Positions 14,851-24,800 of a DNA stretch of 64,000 bases are shown in pieces. Position 1 is the first letter of the stretch, and each line of letters begins with the position of its first letter. The stretch lies in contig NZ_AOII01000107.1 in assembly GCF_000337615.1 (NCBI RefSeq), positions 2,354-66,353 on the forward strand, in the 5' to 3' direction. The translations under genes and the position numbers were made by a program. The stretch comes from Natrinema pallidum DSM 3751 (GTDB lineage: Archaea; Halobacteriota; Halobacteria; Halobacteriales; Natrialbaceae). The notes beneath the pieces are model-generated. The model searched no databases. It had not been told where the DNA came from and was given only the letters and a program-made list of their open reading frames with translations.

Positions 14851-15297
14851 TCACTGCTTGAGTCGCGCGACGTTTTCGCGGATCTGGCCGAGGAGGCCAT
14901 CCCCGGACTCGGTCTGGAGCGCGGCGTGCAGCGTCGAGTTCTCCGGCTCGTCCTCGACGACGATCCGGAGGTACGGCTCGAGCTGTTCGAAGTTGTCCGC
15001 GAGGACGACGGTATGGTTGTCCTCGTCGTGGTCGACGACGCCTGCATCGTCCAGTTTCGGGACGTGACACTGGACCGATGAGACGTAGACGCTCTTGTAT
15101 TCGTTCTTCGCGACTTCGTCGGGCGGCACGTCGTGTTCCCAACCCGCGACCGTCTCCGCCAGCGTCGAGAGTTCGATCGGCTCGTCGTGTCCGCGCAACG
15201 CATAGAGGAGGTAGCGACGGCGGCGGTTCGCCAACAGCTCGAGGATGGTGTTGGCGTCGAGTTCTCGGGCCTCCTGACTCGAGGTAAGGGCTGCCAT
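14851..15297 (-). CDS. Winged-helix regulator, DUF7344-like
   Basis: A 148-residue haloarchaeal DNA-binding protein with an ArsR-like winged helix. The signature start LELLANRRRRYLLYALRGH is followed by the recognition region YKSVYVSSVQCHVPKLDDAG and the wing VVDHDEDNHTVVLADN. I recognise this arrangement as the DUF7344 type, a large haloarchaeal group without an assigned function. The C-terminal 40 residues form a further helix. The gene sits between two tRNA genes and close to an integrated element, but looks intact and native in composition. Confidence 0.78.
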   Translation of the reverse strand: MAALTSSQEARELDANTILELLANRRRRYLLYALRGHDEPIELSTLAETVAGWEHDVPPDEVAKNEYKSVYVSSVQCHVPKLDDAGVVDHDEDNHTVVLADNFEQLEPYLRIVVEDEPENSTLHAALQTESGDGLLGQIRENVARLKQ

Positions 15298-15517: not shown

Positions 15518-15591
15518 GCCGCCTTAGCTCAGACTGGGAGAGCACTCGACTGAAGATCGAGCTGTCCCCGGTTCAAATCCGGGAGGCGGCA
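15518..15591 (+). tRNA. trnF: tRNA-Phe (anticodon GAA)
   Basis: A 74-nt tRNA. The acceptor GCCGCCT pairs with AGGCGGC and has discriminator A. The anticodon loop CTGAAGA gives anticodon GAA, and the T-arm has GGTTCAAATCC. The 3' half is repeated in degenerate form about 1.9 kb downstream, marking it as the attachment site of an integrated element. The tRNA itself is intact. Confidence 0.96.
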
Positions 15592-17448: not shown

Positions 17449-17659
17449 GCACTCGACTGAAGATCGGGCTGTCCCTGTCCCCGCGAGCGAAGCGAGCAGG
17501 TTCTTAGGCGTAATTCAGAATTCGGGAGGCGCATCCTTCTCCAATTCGTCACGTAGCGGCCATACAGCAGCTGATTTCGGCAGTGTTTCTGCCTCGAGTC
17601 GGAGGGATTTGAACCGGCTCACGAACGTCCCCATCGCCGTCGGGCGTTTCGTTATTCAC
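17449..17659 (+). repeat. Right copy of the tRNA-Phe-associated repeat, interrupted
   Basis: A degenerate copy of the tRNA-Phe 3' half and its downstream flank. GCACTCGACTGAAGATCGGG matches the anticodon arm. The T-arm is then replaced by about 45 nt containing GCGAGCGAAGCGAGC, after which GGGAGGC and the flanking blocks shared with 15592-15715 resume. It lies just upstream of the integrase remnant, as an attR-like end would. The loss of the T-arm means it cannot encode a tRNA. Confidence 0.72.
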
Positions 17660-17724: not shown

Positions 17725-17743
17725 GTGGAGCGTTCCGCTCCAC
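17725..17743 (+). promoter_or_regulatory. Palindromic candidate operator before the HTH-10 gene
   Basis: GTGGAGCG-TTC-CGCTCCAC is a perfect 8-bp inverted repeat with a 3-nt spacer, ending two nt before the ATG at 17745. The TATA-like AATATTAAC lies about 25-34 nt before the ATG, so the palindrome would cover the transcription start of a leaderless mRNA. Autoregulation by the encoded regulator is a reasonable inference, but a hairpin in the 5' end of the mRNA is also possible. Confidence 0.55.
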
Positions 17744-17744
17744 A

Positions 17745-18422
17745 ATGACGGTTACGACTGAATTACGGCTCCGATCAGCCTCGCTGCCGCTTGTGGAGCT
17801 TACGGCGTCACTGCAACCCGACGAGGTCGAGTGCGTACACGCACTCTGTCTACAGTCGGACGTTCGGATATTTACCGTCCGGATCGATTCGACGGACGAT
17901 GTCTCCGACGACGACCTCGCGGCGCTCGAGGAAGTCGTGGAGGTGACGGCGCTCGGACGCACGAACGGGAAACGGATGTACCAACTCACCGTCGAACTCG
18001 CGGACGCCATCTCGGAGGCGTTCGACCCCGACCGGTTCGACGGGGCGCAACTGGAGCCGACGACCATCACGCCGGAGGGCTGGTACGAGAAGAAGGTGTT
18101 CAAAGACTACGAGACGTTCGCCGAGTTCCGAACGAGTTGTGAGGAGCACGGTATCCCCATCGAACTCGTCTCGATCACCGCTGACGCCTCATCAACTGCT
18201 GACTCGTCACGGCACGGATTAACCGACCGCCAACACGAGGCGCTCACGCTCGCGATCGCTCGCGGCTACTACGACAGCCCACGCCGAACCTCGATGGAGG
18301 CGCTTGCCGAAGAGTTGGGCATTTCACAACCCGCGCTATCGACTCTGCTCCGTCGTGCGGAGCGGCAGGTCCTCACGTCCGCGCTCGACGCACGGAAACA
18401 CGTCGAGACGGTCTCCAGCTAA
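17745..18422 (+). CDS. Bat-type HTH-10 regulator (copy 1)
   Basis: A 225-residue haloarchaeal regulator related to the bacterio-opsin activator. Residues 1-150 form a beta-rich input domain (GWYEKKVFKDYETFAEFR is a typical stretch). Residues 158-210 form the HTH-10 domain, with the diagnostic GLTDRQHEAL and GYYDSPRRTSMEALAEELGI and recognition part SQPALSTLLRRAE. It is a clear paralogue of the gene at 19633. An SDR gene follows on the same strand after a 237-nt gap. It probably controls that neighbour or itself; the signal is unknown. Confidence 0.88.
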   Translation: MTVTTELRLRSASLPLVELTASLQPDEVECVHALCLQSDVRIFTVRIDSTDDVSDDDLAALEEVVEVTALGRTNGKRMYQLTVELADAISEAFDPDRFDGAQLEPTTITPEGWYEKKVFKDYETFAEFRTSCEEHGIPIELVSITADASSTADSSRHGLTDRQHEALTLAIARGYYDSPRRTSMEALAEELGISQPALSTLLRRAERQVLTSALDARKHVETVSS

Positions 18423-18597
18423 TATCGCCTGCATGTGCCCGTATCCGGATACTGACGATAGGACCAGTCTCGAGTCGCTGACAAGGAATTCGTCGGCGAT
18501 CGAGTTCGGATCACCGACGGACTTCGGGGATCGCTGCTTGACGAGCCGGTTCCGGACGCGAGTACGCGCCCGAGAGTCTCGGTCCGGCCCACTGGAC

Positions 18598-18630
18598 TAC
18601 TTAAACACCCTTTCCATATAACAGCAGTCC
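18598..18630 (+). promoter_or_regulatory. Promoter element of the SDR gene, shared with the AKR gene
   Basis: TACTTAAACA followed by CTTTC and, after a short gap, AACAGCA. The same order occurs before the aldo/keto reductase at 20433. The first block fits a TATA box; it lies 55-62 nt before the SDR ATG, so the mRNA should have a leader of some 30 nt. The conservation extends beyond what a TATA box needs, suggesting a common regulator. Confidence 0.55.
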
Positions 18631-18659
18631 CAAACCGGTCGCGACCCTCGGTTCGGGTG

Positions 18660-19424
18660 ATGACAACAGCATTCGGTTCTGAACTGGACGGGCAGGTCGC
18701 GATCGTTACGGGAGCGTCTTCGGGCATCGGCGAAGCAACGGCTACCGCGCTGGCATCGCGCGGTGCGAGCGTCGTTCTCGCCGCCCGACGCGAGGACGCA
18801 CTCGAGGAAGTCGCCGCCCGGATCGAGGACGAAGACGGGGAGGCGCTCGTCGTTCCGACCGATATCACGGACGACGACGACATCGATGAACTGGTCGAGA
18901 CGACGACTGACGAATACGGTCGGATCGATATCCTCGTGAACAACGCGGGCTACATGCCGCTCGCACACATTGCGGATGCGGATCGGGAAACCCTCACGAC
19001 GACCATCGATGTCAATCTCGACGGGCTGCTCACGCTCACCCACGCCGTCGTTCCCACGATGCTCGAGCAAGAACGCGGACACGTCGTGAATCTCTCCTCG
19101 GTTGCCGGACGGTTTGCGATGGAGAACAGTTCGCATTATATGGCGGCGAAAGCCGGCGTGACCGGCTTCGGCCGGGCGCTTCGACGCGACGTCGCCCAAG
19201 AGGGACTCCGCGTTTCGACTATCGAACCGGGGGCAGTCAACACGGCGCTCACCGAGGACATCCCCGACGACGAGGTCAAGTCCTACGTCGAGGACTACAA
19301 CCAATCGATGCGACAGCTCGAGCCCGCTGATATCGCGCGGACGATCACGTTCGTCGTGACACAGCCAGACCACGTAGATATCAACGAAGTCCTGATCCGG
19401 CCGACGGATCAGGTTCAACCGTAG
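18660..19424 (+). CDS. Short-chain dehydrogenase/reductase
   Basis: A 254-residue classical SDR. Cofactor motif TGASSGIG (residues 17-24), NNAG at 94-97, and catalytic Ser147, Tyr160 and Lys164 (YMAAK) are all present. AARRED after the second strand suggests NADP(H) preference. The substrate is unknown. A GTG codon just before the ATG could also be the start. It follows an HTH-10 regulator and uses a promoter resembling that of the reductase at 20433, so the two enzymes may be induced together. Confidence 0.92.
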   Translation: MTTAFGSELDGQVAIVTGASSGIGEATATALASRGASVVLAARREDALEEVAARIEDEDGEALVVPTDITDDDDIDELVETTTDEYGRIDILVNNAGYMPLAHIADADRETLTTTIDVNLDGLLTLTHAVVPTMLEQERGHVVNLSSVAGRFAMENSSHYMAAKAGVTGFGRALRRDVAQEGLRVSTIEPGAVNTALTEDIPDDEVKSYVEDYNQSMRQLEPADIARTITFVVTQPDHVDINEVLIRPTDQVQP

Positions 19425-19632
19425 CGCACAGCCGAGGGCAGCAAACTCGGCCGGCATCGGTATCGGACAGCGCCAGTGACGGTCGGTGTCCGAGACGACG
19501 GCCGCCTCGGGGATGCGCATCGTCTTGTAAATCAAGATACTCCTGTCCGGAGACGTAATCCGTGATAGAAACGACGATCATGACGGCCATTACCCCTGTG
19601 AGACGCGCGATAACGGAGGCAAACCCCATCCG

Positions 19633-20316
19633 ATGACGATCACGACTGAATTCCGTCTCGAGTCACCCTCGCTTCCGCTCCTCGATGTCGCCGAATCGGT
19701 TCGGAGTACGGAACTAACGTGCGTTCACGGGCTCCAACTCCGAGACGGCGTCCAGTTGTTCCTCGTCCAGATCGACAGCACGGACGACGTCTCCGAAACG
19801 GAACTCACAACGCTCGAGAACGTGAGGGCGGCGACGCTGGTCGGACACACGAGCGACGAAGCGATTTACAAGATCACCGTCGAACTCGAGGACCGACTCA
19901 CACGCCTCTTCGATCCCGAACGGTTCGATATCGCACCAGTCGAACCGCCCACGATTTCGCCGAAGGGCTGGTACGAGCACAAACTATTCAAGAGCTACGC
20001 GGAGTTCAACGACTATCGAGCCTGCTGTCAGGATCGTGACATCGAACTCGAACTCGTTTCGGTCAGCCCCGATCCGTCCGCGATCGAGGGCCCCTCACGG
20101 CACGGATTAACGGACCGTCAACACGAGGCGCTCACGCTTGCGCTCGCTCGTGGCTACTACGACAGTCCGCGTCGAACGTCGACCGAAGACCTCGCCCACG
20201 AACTCGGCATCTCGCAGCCGTCGATGTCGAGTCTCCTTCGCCGCGGTGAACGACAACTCTTCTCGTCCGTACTCGACTCTCGGAAAGAAGGGCGGATTCG
20301 GTCCGGCAGGGAGTGA
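19633..20316 (+). CDS. Bat-type HTH-10 regulator (copy 2)
   Basis: A 227-residue paralogue of the regulator at 17745. The shared parts include IDSTDDVS, the central WYE.K.FK.Y.EF motif, and the HTH-10 domain with HGLTDRQHEALTLALARGYY and LGISQPSMSSLLRRGERQL. The input domains differ more than the DNA-binding domains, which fits a duplication followed by change in the sensed signal. It is followed by an aldo/keto reductase. No palindrome like the one before copy 1 is seen; GATAACGG about 20-28 nt upstream could be its TATA box. Confidence 0.88.
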   Translation: MTITTEFRLESPSLPLLDVAESVRSTELTCVHGLQLRDGVQLFLVQIDSTDDVSETELTTLENVRAATLVGHTSDEAIYKITVELEDRLTRLFDPERFDIAPVEPPTISPKGWYEHKLFKSYAEFNDYRACCQDRDIELELVSVSPDPSAIEGPSRHGLTDRQHEALTLALARGYYDSPRRTSTEDLAHELGISQPSMSSLLRRGERQLFSSVLDSRKEGRIRSGRE

Positions 20317-20362
20317 CGGTCACCGGGACGAACTCGACTCGTCCGTCTCCCGCTCGGTGGGG

Positions 20363-20432
20363 TACTTAAACATGCTTTCTGAACAGCATCGAGTCCATGA
20401 GAGACGACCCCCAACTATAGGTTGTCTCAACC
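20363..20432 (+). promoter_or_regulatory. Promoter and leader of the aldo/keto reductase
   Basis: TACTTAAACA, then CTTTC and AACAGCA, repeats the element before the SDR gene. The leader ends with two nested inverted repeats: GAGACGAC (20401-20408) can pair with GTTGTCTC (20421-20428), and GGTTG-TCT-CAACC (20420-20432) abuts the ATG. The leader of roughly 40 nt could thus form alternative stems that hide the start region. The function is inferred only. Confidence 0.5.
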
Positions 20433-21413
20433 ATGGACTACACGACCCTTGGATCGACCGGGATGGAGGTCAGTTCGCTCTGTCTCGGCTGCATGAGTTT
20501 CGGATCGAGCGAGTGGCAACCGTGGGTCCTCGACGAGGAGGAGTCACGGGAGATCATCGAACGGGCGATCGACCTCGGCATCAACTTCTTCGACACCGCG
20601 AACGTCTACTCGTCGGGCAAGTCCGAGGAAATCCTCGGGAACGTTCTCGCAGAGTACGATCGTGACGAACAGGTCGTCGCGACGAAAGCATTCTTGCCCC
20701 CTGAGGAGGACCCGCATCCGAACGCGACGGGGCTTTCCCGGAAAACCATCGAGCAGGAACTAGCGAACTCGCTCGATCGGCTCGGCATGGAGACGGTCGA
20801 TCTTTACCAGATTCACCGCTGGGACTACGAGACCCCTATCGAGGAGACGCTGCGGGCGCTCGACGACGCCGTTCGCCGCGGGCAGACCCGCTATATCGGT
20901 GCCTCCTCGATGTGGACGTATCAGTTCGCGGATGCGCTCCACACCAGCGACCGTCTCGACCTCGAGCGGTTCGCGACGATGCAGAACCACTACAACCTCG
21001 TCTACCGCGAGGAGGAGCGCGAGATGCTCCCGTTCGCAGACCGGGAGGGGATCGGCGTGATGCCGTGGTCGCCGCTCGCTGGCGGCTACCTCACCCGTCC
21101 TCACGACGAACTCGAGGCGACGACGCGCGGCGAGACGGACAAGTACATCGATCAACTCCCGTATCGGGATGGCGGCGGTCCCGCGGTCAACGAGCGCGTC
21201 GCAGAACTCGCCGACGATCACGGTGTCACGATGGCACAGATCGCGCTCGCATGGCTCCTTCACAAGGAGTGGGTCACGACCCCGATCGTCGGGACGACCA
21301 GTGTCGAACACCTCGAGGACGCCGTTGAGGCGCTGGAAATCGATCTGTCGGACTCGGATATCGACTACCTCGAGGAACCCTACGAGCCGCTGCCGGTCGC
21401 CGGACACGAGTAG
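20433..21413 (+). CDS. Aldo/keto reductase, paralogue of the 7286 gene
   Basis: A 326-residue NAD(P)H-dependent TIM-barrel enzyme. The catalytic residues are Asp54 and Tyr59 (FFDTANVYSS), Lys85 (VVATKAF) and His128 (YQIHRWD). It shares the start MxYTTLGSTGMxVS and the exact ending EEPYEPLPVAGHE with the reductase at 7286-8257. It lies 116 nt after the second HTH-10 regulator and has the promoter element also found before the SDR gene. Likely regulated by that neighbour; the substrate is unknown. Confidence 0.92.
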   Translation: MDYTTLGSTGMEVSSLCLGCMSFGSSEWQPWVLDEEESREIIERAIDLGINFFDTANVYSSGKSEEILGNVLAEYDRDEQVVATKAFLPPEEDPHPNATGLSRKTIEQELANSLDRLGMETVDLYQIHRWDYETPIEETLRALDDAVRRGQTRYIGASSMWTYQFADALHTSDRLDLERFATMQNHYNLVYREEEREMLPFADREGIGVMPWSPLAGGYLTRPHDELEATTRGETDKYIDQLPYRDGGGPAVNERVAELADDHGVTMAQIALAWLLHKEWVTTPIVGTTSVEHLEDAVEALEIDLSDSDIDYLEEPYEPLPVAGHE

Positions 21414-21563: not shown

Positions 21564-22424
21564 GTGAGCAGTAACTCGATCACAAACGAGAGCGACACGT
21601 TCGAGATCGGCGGTTCGACCGTTCGTCGGCTGGGGTTCGGCGCGATGCGGATCACCGGCGAGGACATCATCGGTGCGCCGGAGGACGAGGCGTCCGCACG
21701 CGAGGTCGTCCAGCACGCGGTCGACTGCGGCGTCGATCTCATCGATACGGCGGACTCCTACGGTCCCGCGGTGAGCGAGCGCCTCATCGGCGAGGCGATC
21801 GGCGACCCCGACGACGTCCTGATCGCGACCAAGGCCGGCCTGCTGCGCAACAGCGAGGGCGAGTGGCTCGCCCACGGCGACCCGGACTACATCCGTAATC
21901 AGGTCCTCACGTCCCTCGACCGGCTCCGGACGGACACGATCGATCTCTATCAGTTCCATCGGCCGGACGACGACACGCCTTTCGAGGACTCCGTCGCGAC
22001 CTTCGCGGAACTCAAAGACGAGGGCCTCGTCGACGCGGTCGGCGTCAGTAACGTCTCCGCGGAACTCCTCGATCGAGCCCGTGAGCAGGTCGAGATCGAG
22101 ACCGTCCAGAACCGGTACAACCTGAACGACCGCGGCAGCCGGGAGGTGCTCGAGATCTGTGCCGAGGTGGGGATCGGCTTCATCCCGTGGGCCCCGATCG
22201 ACGGCGACGATCTGGCCGAACACGGCGACCTCCTCGACGAGATCGCCGAACGCCACGACGCGACACGACGACAGGTCGCGCTGGCCTGGCTCCTCGAGCG
22301 GTCCGCCGTCATGCTCCCGATTCCGGGCACGTCCGATCCCGCCCACCTCGAATCCAACCTCGCGGCCTCGCAACTCTCGCTCGGTGACGACGAGGTCCGC
22401 CGACTGACCGCGGCCGCCGACTGA
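21564..22424 (+). CDS. Aldo/keto reductase, divergent
   Basis: A 286-residue aldo/keto reductase of a different branch from the two others here. The catalytic residues are Asp61 and Tyr66 (LIDTADSYG), Lys90 (IATKAG) and His132 (YQFHRPD). It resembles the oxidoreductases with an AMRITGEDIIGAP-type N-terminus that are common in actinobacteria and haloarchaea. It begins with GTG; no in-frame ATG is better placed. It follows the previous reductase after 150 nt and may be under its own promoter. The C-terminus IPGTSDPAHLESNLAA binds the cofactor. Confidence 0.88.
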   Translation: MSSNSITNESDTFEIGGSTVRRLGFGAMRITGEDIIGAPEDEASAREVVQHAVDCGVDLIDTADSYGPAVSERLIGEAIGDPDDVLIATKAGLLRNSEGEWLAHGDPDYIRNQVLTSLDRLRTDTIDLYQFHRPDDDTPFEDSVATFAELKDEGLVDAVGVSNVSAELLDRAREQVEIETVQNRYNLNDRGSREVLEICAEVGIGFIPWAPIDGDDLAEHGDLLDEIAERHDATRRQVALAWLLERSAVMLPIPGTSDPAHLESNLAASQLSLGDDEVRRLTAAAD

Positions 22425-23951: not shown

Positions 23952-24800
23952 ATGGTCGCACACGACGACCTCGAGCACGGACAGGCCCGCGTCAACGGCG
24001 TCAAACTGCACTACGTGACCGCTGGCGACGGACTGCCCCTGGTATTGCTCCATGGCTGGCCACAGACCTGGTACGAATGGCGGAATGTCATTCCACACCT
24101 CGCCGACGAGTACACCGTTATCGCGCCCGATCTTCGCGGACTGGGCGACTCCGAAACCCCCGTTTCGGGGTACGACAAGGACACCGTCGCGACCGACGTT
24201 CGGGCCCTCCTCGACCACCTCGGACATGGCGACGACCCGATCGTGCTCGTCGGCCACGACTGGGGAATGCCGACCGCGTACGCCTATGCCGCCCAGTACC
24301 GCGACCATGTCCGTGCACTCTGCGTGCTCGAGGCCGGGCTACCGGGGATCAACGAGGACGAGAAACGCCAGCTTTGGCACACCCGCTTTCACAGTGTACG
24401 CGACCTCCCGGAGCAGTTGGTCGCCGGCCGAGAGCGACTCTATCTCGACTGGTTCTACAAGGAAGGCGCGTACGACCCCTCGGCGATCGACGACGACGCC
24501 CGTGAGGAGTACGTCCGCTGTTACTCGCAGGCCGGCGGGTTGCGGGGCGGCTTCGAGTACTACCGCGCCTACGAGACCGATGCCGAGCGCAATCGAGACC
24601 ACGCCGAGGAGCCACTCGAGATGCCCGTGCTCGCCCTCGGCGGCGCGGCGTCCTTCGGGGACCTCCCGATCGGGGACATGAAAGCGGTCGCGACCGATGT
24701 CGAGGGCGAGGTCGTCGACCGCGCCGGTCACTGGATACCCGAGGAACGGCCGGCGTACTTCGTCGAACGCCTGACCGACTTTCTCGCGGACGCGGCGTGA
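23952..24800 (+). CDS. Alpha/beta hydrolase (epoxide hydrolase / haloacetate dehalogenase type)
   Basis: A 282-residue alpha/beta-hydrolase. The oxyanion motif HGWPQTWYEW (about residues 33-42) and the nucleophile motif VGHDWGM, with Asp instead of Ser, place it among epoxide hydrolases and haloacetate dehalogenases. The catalytic His is in the late DRAGHWIPEERP. The ATG is closely preceded by a GATATTTCAG stretch that could be a TATA element (about 25 nt). Substrate cannot be told from sequence. Single gene. Confidence 0.9.
   Translation: MVAHDDLEHGQARVNGVKLHYVTAGDGLPLVLLHGWPQTWYEWRNVIPHLADEYTVIAPDLRGLGDSETPVSGYDKDTVATDVRALLDHLGHGDDPIVLVGHDWGMPTAYAYAAQYRDHVRALCVLEAGLPGINEDEKRQLWHTRFHSVRDLPEQLVAGRERLYLDWFYKEGAYDPSAIDDDAREEYVRCYSQAGGLRGGFEYYRAYETDAERNRDHAEEPLEMPVLALGGAASFGDLPIGDMKAVATDVEGEVVDRAGHWIPEERPAYFVERLTDFLADAA

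Follow-up and report, generated by a model that had tools for sequence, protein, structure and literature searches.

We analyzed a 64,000-nucleotide stretch of the Natrinema pallidum DSM 3751 genome (the window), in which four genes on the plus strand between 17.7 and 21.4 kb are arranged as two regulator-enzyme cassettes. An earlier note on this DNA, made from the letters alone, had described paralogous HTH_10 regulators that each precede an oxidoreductase of a different family, and domain searches confirmed this arrangement. The features are as follows.

17745..18422, plus strand: R1, an HTH_10 one-component regulator of 225 aa (PF04967, E 5.9e-20; family alignment), with an input domain at residues 1-150 that carries C30-x-H32-x-x-C35 and C132, and HTH_10 at residues 159-210
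18598..18634, plus strand: SDR promoter element (genome matches, conservation across 92 non-redundant sites), with TATA-like TTAAA at 18601-18605, dyad half-sites at 18610-18621, initiator-like CCA at 18630-18632, and a predicted +1 at ~18632
18660..19424, plus strand: SDR-family oxidoreductase of 254 aa (PF00106, E 4.9e-60), with an alternative GTG start at 18657
19633..20316, plus strand: R2, an HTH_10 regulator of 227 aa and paralogue of R1 (PF04967, E 2.5e-18), which retains C30, H32, and C132 and has Q at position 35
20363..20399, plus strand: AKR promoter element (genome matches, site conservation), with TTAAA at 20366-20370, dyad half-sites at 20375-20386, and initiator-like CCA at 20395-20397, where the start site is predicted
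20433..21413, plus strand: aldo/keto reductase (AKR) of 326 aa (PF00248, E 4.1e-74)

The SDR carries the superfamily motifs TGASSGIG, NNAG, and S..YMAAK, read by eye from the translation, and a phmmer search against the PDB placed clavaldehyde dehydrogenase (2jah) closest to it. The AKR is akin to aryl-alcohol dehydrogenase-like, YdjG, and YghZ AKRs, with NCBIfam matches below the cut-off. Its PDB relatives are 7utf, 8hwn, and 3n6q, with aryl-alcohol dehydrogenase-like, DepB, and YghZ-type AKRs among the closest solved structures, and the Asp-Tyr-Lys-His tetrad of the superfamily was found by eye (FDTANVY, ATKAF, YQIHRW).

Haloarchaea carry dozens of HTH_10 genes, few of which have a described role; the source genome has 37 HTH_10 matches. 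R1 and R2 scored 71.3 and 66.1 bits for this domain against a cut-off of 23.1 and are 57% identical to each other over 218 aa, and R1 is 92-93% identical to its counterparts in Natrinema gari and N. altunense. As the note had observed, the DNA-binding domains are more alike (51 of 64 residues, 80%) than the input domains (73 of 150, 49%). This order is usual for the family, as it occurs in 99% of its pairs, but the R1/R2 DNA-binding identity lies ~2 SD above that of pairs with similar input identity (mean 0.69, SD 0.055). Gene conversion was ruled out as the source of this likeness: identity at fourfold sites is 17/32 in the DNA-binding domain versus 28/40 in the input domain, which argues for selection at the protein level rather than recent conversion. 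In a tree of 74 regulators, R1 and R2 are not sisters, so that a recent tandem duplication is without support, and the pair would stem from a more ancient duplication or have been acquired in two independent events. The suggestion of a duplicated control module held in part: a regulator-plus-promoter module is repeated before different enzyme families, but it is not a fresh local copy.

Four input-domain residues are conserved among the 74 relatives (C30 in 62, H32 in 67, C35 in 53, and C132 in 62), and this conservation suggests a sensor role for the Cys/His set. Pfam searches gave no PAS or GAF match in either regulator; the BAT-associated domain PF15915 reached 19.8 bits in R2 against a cut-off of 25.8 and had no match in R1. 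An AlphaFold model of R1 from an alignment of eight sequences was weak (pLDDT 67, pTM 0.53), and its best PDB fold match was moderate at most (5m86, TM 0.42), which makes these fold matches unusable.

The promoter pattern that had been noticed before both enzyme genes is real. The sequence TACTTAAACANNCTTTC occurs exactly at 18598-18614 and 20363-20379 (chance expectation in the window, 0.01), and a third piece, AACAGCA, is likewise exact at both promoters. Unbiased, two-strand motif discovery in the 300 bp up- and downstream of ~57 regulators (family and class relatives) returned, at a width of 24 bp, one motif, TTTAAA-YR-nn-CTWTC-nnn-ATAGCAT on the target strand, which coincides with this pattern at both window promoters. 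An 18-bp model was discarded, as it recovered coding-sequence bias only.

Across 92 non-redundant sites, the motif extends into a core-promoter element of ~50 bp with the consensus TAYTTAAAYRnSCTWTCnnGATAGCATCR(n3)YCCA and a later CC, and each main target class taken alone (SDR, cupin, AKR, or Zn-ADH) yields the same consensus. A CTWTC-NN-GATAG dyad sits between the TATA-like box and the initiator-like YCA, and symmetry peaks at its center (mean complementarity of 0.55 versus ≤0.41 at the other centers tested). All conservation lies downstream: no conserved block, including a BRE, was found upstream of the TATA-like TTAAA in the 92 sites. The YCA block (positions 30-32) reads as an initiator; its distance from TTAAA is fixed, and that to the ATG varies from ~32 to 52. 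With the A of YCA taken as +1, the dyad would span roughly -22 to -11.

The element is specific. In the 3.9-Mb genome, only the SDR and AKR promoters match the pattern with ≤2 mismatches. Among 394 haloarchaeal genomes, the 24-bp pattern with ≤1 mismatch gave ~70 matches in 34 genomes versus 2 for the reversed control, and a rescan of 0.93 Mb of regulator loci gave 145 sites versus 0 in reversed sequence. Three of the 34 genomes, which hold only an insertion sequence (IS)-like repeat, were left out. A close relative of the regulators (E ≤ 1e-55) was present in 29 of the remaining 31 element-bearing genomes versus 9 of the 363 others (Fisher p ~1e-33, indicative only since the genomes are related). 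A thirtieth genome, G213, has a regulator just under the threshold directly beside its site. Two element matches that had no part in motif finding (G271:C18 and G213:C15) adjoin regulators that fell under the first cut-off. At the level of single sites, 115 of 126 distinct scored sites lie ≤5 kb from a regulator; since these loci were mostly picked for their regulators, comparing whole genomes is the fairer test.

The pattern is not common before unrelated genes; had it been, this would have spoken against the earlier proposal. The genes that follow the sites encode SDRs (39), cupins (28), AKRs (27), and Zn-ADHs (12), with a few quinone-reductase-type proteins, alpha/beta-hydrolases, and others. 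One IS-borne look-alike, TTAAACAAGCTGTCTCGATAGCAC, and a close variant are repeated in G205, G236, and G091 (L198, L197, and L199), with 12 matches in G205 alone. Where it could be read (L197 and L199), it lies by a transposase-like gene; it may be a chance likeness or a captured promoter and was set aside. Five further loci (L191, L192, L194, L140, and L134) have element sites with no regulator within the fetched stretch, and the readable ones precede an SDR or cupin gene, which suggests regulation in trans. The L134 site precedes a shortened SDR-like reading frame.

If a cassette is defined by a close regulator relative and an oxidoreductase or cupin gene preceded by a TATA-CTWTC-GATAGCAT element, both window cassettes belong to this class. 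Of the 29 genomes of the genus, 3 have a tandem pair like R1/R2 at this place, and paired or multiple regulators recur in further genomes in other arrangements. On the Natrinema versiforme plasmid pNVE500, two regulators stand back to back, one facing an SDR gene and the other an AKR-cupin-AKR-flavodoxin series, all with generic annotation only. The window pair is therefore not unique and is, judged from gene content and promoter sequence, one instance of a recurrent haloarchaeal cassette family that looks widespread.

Our preferred model, which we hold to be somewhat more probable than an even chance, is that these are tandem cassettes in which the regulators act as local repressors at a core-promoter operator and are released by an electrophile or redox signal; we infer the binding, the repression, the signal, and the enzyme substrates. 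A regulator dimer would bind the CTWTC-NN-GATAG dyad, which lies after the TATA box and before the predicted start site, and block polymerase recruitment at the SDR or AKR promoter. Once an electrophile, carbonyl, or oxidant reaches the input domain with its Cys/His set, the regulator would let go of the DNA; the SDR and AKR would then be produced and reduce the toxic carbonyl. The sign of regulation is drawn by analogy with archaeal TrmB-type sites, which inhibit polymerase recruitment when downstream of the TATA box and activate when upstream (PMC10817205); with the dyad downstream of TATA, repression is the most likely mode. The relatives of the enzymes, together with flavodoxin and Fe/Mn SOD genes among the neighbors of other cassettes, suggest a role in carbonyl or redox stress. 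Near-identical operators predict cross-talk, and R1 and R2 probably cross-regulate, in which case their differing input domains could answer different inputs and feed one small regulon of common targets. Counting against the repressor model, R2 lacks C35 and some relatives lack C132. The model also requires a leader of ~25-45 nt, while transcripts in Haloferax are mostly leaderless (72%; PMC4983044).

The main rival is activation, in which the element is again the binding site but the bound regulator assists TBP/TFB or polymerase upon a signal, the promoter itself being weak. We regard this as a serious reading, if an unlikely one. The characterized HTH_10 proteins Bat, NarO, and DmsR are all activators (PMC11218638), the missing BRE could be expected of activator-dependent promoters, and the archaeal activators Ptr2 and BarR are quoted as having further DNA contacts downstream of TATA (PMC7830388). 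The usual archaeal activator site lies upstream of TATA, however, where nothing is conserved in the 92 sites, and the conserved dyad occupies the position at which polymerase loads. The same leaderless transcripts of Haloferax favor a quite improbable alternative: the element would lie upstream of the true promoter, which would give leaderless SDR and AKR mRNAs, and TTAAA would belong to the regulator's site instead of being the TATA box. A site upstream of the promoter would suit HTH_10 activators. Neither the lack of a TATA-like sequence 27 nt before the start codons nor the YCA spacing, fixed to TTAAA and not to the ATG, agrees with this alternative.

Two other readings were weighed. The look-alike promoters could be generic haloarchaeal core promoters, with regulators acting elsewhere, and the element does include a TATA-like box as well as an AT-rich ATA that resembles a -10 element. 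We rejected a generic TATA/-10 identity on the match counts: with only two matches in 3.9 Mb, ~70 matches against 2 for the control across the class, and strong co-occurrence with the regulators, this explanation is scarcely credible. That the SDR and the AKR act one after the other in a single pathway answering two signals, the two-step route of the earlier note, fits the adjacency of the cassettes in three close species and the neighboring SDR and AKR cassettes on pNVE500. In other genomes, SDR, AKR, ADH, and cupin cassettes stand alone or in many different mixtures, and we consider such a route very unlikely.

The cassettes resemble several known systems in part. Like Bat, NarO, and DmsR, R1 and R2 have a C-terminal HTH_10 domain and an N-terminal input domain, and like NarO and DmsR as described, they have no PAS or GAF match. 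Bat, NarO, and DmsR activate anaerobic or phototrophic genes, whereas the R1/R2 subfamily adjoins genes for SDRs, AKRs, ADHs, and cupins. A conserved site upstream of the TATA box, as expected of such activators, is absent from the 92 sites; the candidate operator lies inside the core promoter instead. In bacteria, YqhC and NemR are electrophile-response regulators with thiol-based sensing. Escherichia coli YqhC-yqhD/dkgA and NemR also place a local regulator beside aldehyde or carbonyl reductases (AKR, ADH), although they belong to unrelated families (AraC and TetR) and act at bacterial promoters; the parallel in thiol-based electrophile sensing is proposed for R1 and R2 from their conserved Cys/His. 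With archaeal TrmB-type regulators, too, repression or activation depends on where the site lies with respect to TATA (PMC10817205), but they are a separate, sugar-responsive protein family that acts on central metabolism and not on local cassettes.

The open-licence literature yielded no HTH_10 protein from haloarchaea that regulates SDR, AKR, or cupin genes or aldehyde stress, and the cassettes appear to define an undescribed subfamily of the known HTH_10 regulators with its own promoter element. For one HTH_10 subfamily, an operator and a set of targets can thereby be predicted, along with a sign of regulation that is open to test. If the model is true, it would describe an archaeal carbonyl/electrophile-response system and offer a clear example of a single promoter element that enzyme families of unrelated kinds have in common and that moves between replicons. 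We advance more tentatively, at rather less than an even chance, the wider proposal of an undescribed archaeal electrophile-response system in which HTH_10 thiol-switch repressors act at a core-promoter operator. Several paralogues per genome would connect different sensors to one ~50-bp element that four unrelated enzyme families have come to use and that spreads on plasmids and through tRNA-adjacent insertions.

Signs of mobility were found in several places. R1 relatives occur on plasmids of eight haloarchaea. In the window, a second AKR gene (21564-22424) lies directly downstream of the cassette AKR and lacks the promoter element; unlike the cassette AKR, it has a close relative in 29 of 29 genomes of the genus. 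The gap between tRNA-Phe and the relative of this second AKR is ~0.65 kb in G390, versus ~6 kb for the window genes, which places the cassette pair in extra DNA beside tRNA-Phe. The 3' flank of tRNA-Phe (15518-15591) is duplicated at 17531-17654 with 72-91% identity and a spacing of ~1.94 kb, and a tRNA-Phe-like stretch begins at ~17448. This repeat resembles the att-type duplication that an integration next to the cassettes would leave behind.

Some smaller features complete the picture. The region is flanked by genes for a DUF7344 protein (14851-15297) and a haloalkane-dehalogenase-like alpha/beta hydrolase (23952-24800). In G270, which has element sites elsewhere, the regulator relative at C26:145450-145776 is partial and contains an in-frame TAG. 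Upstream of R1, a perfect 8-bp inverted repeat, GTGGAGCG-TTC-CGCTCCAC, spans 17725-17743 and ends 1 base 5' of the start codon; this potential hairpin is imperfect in the close relative L011.
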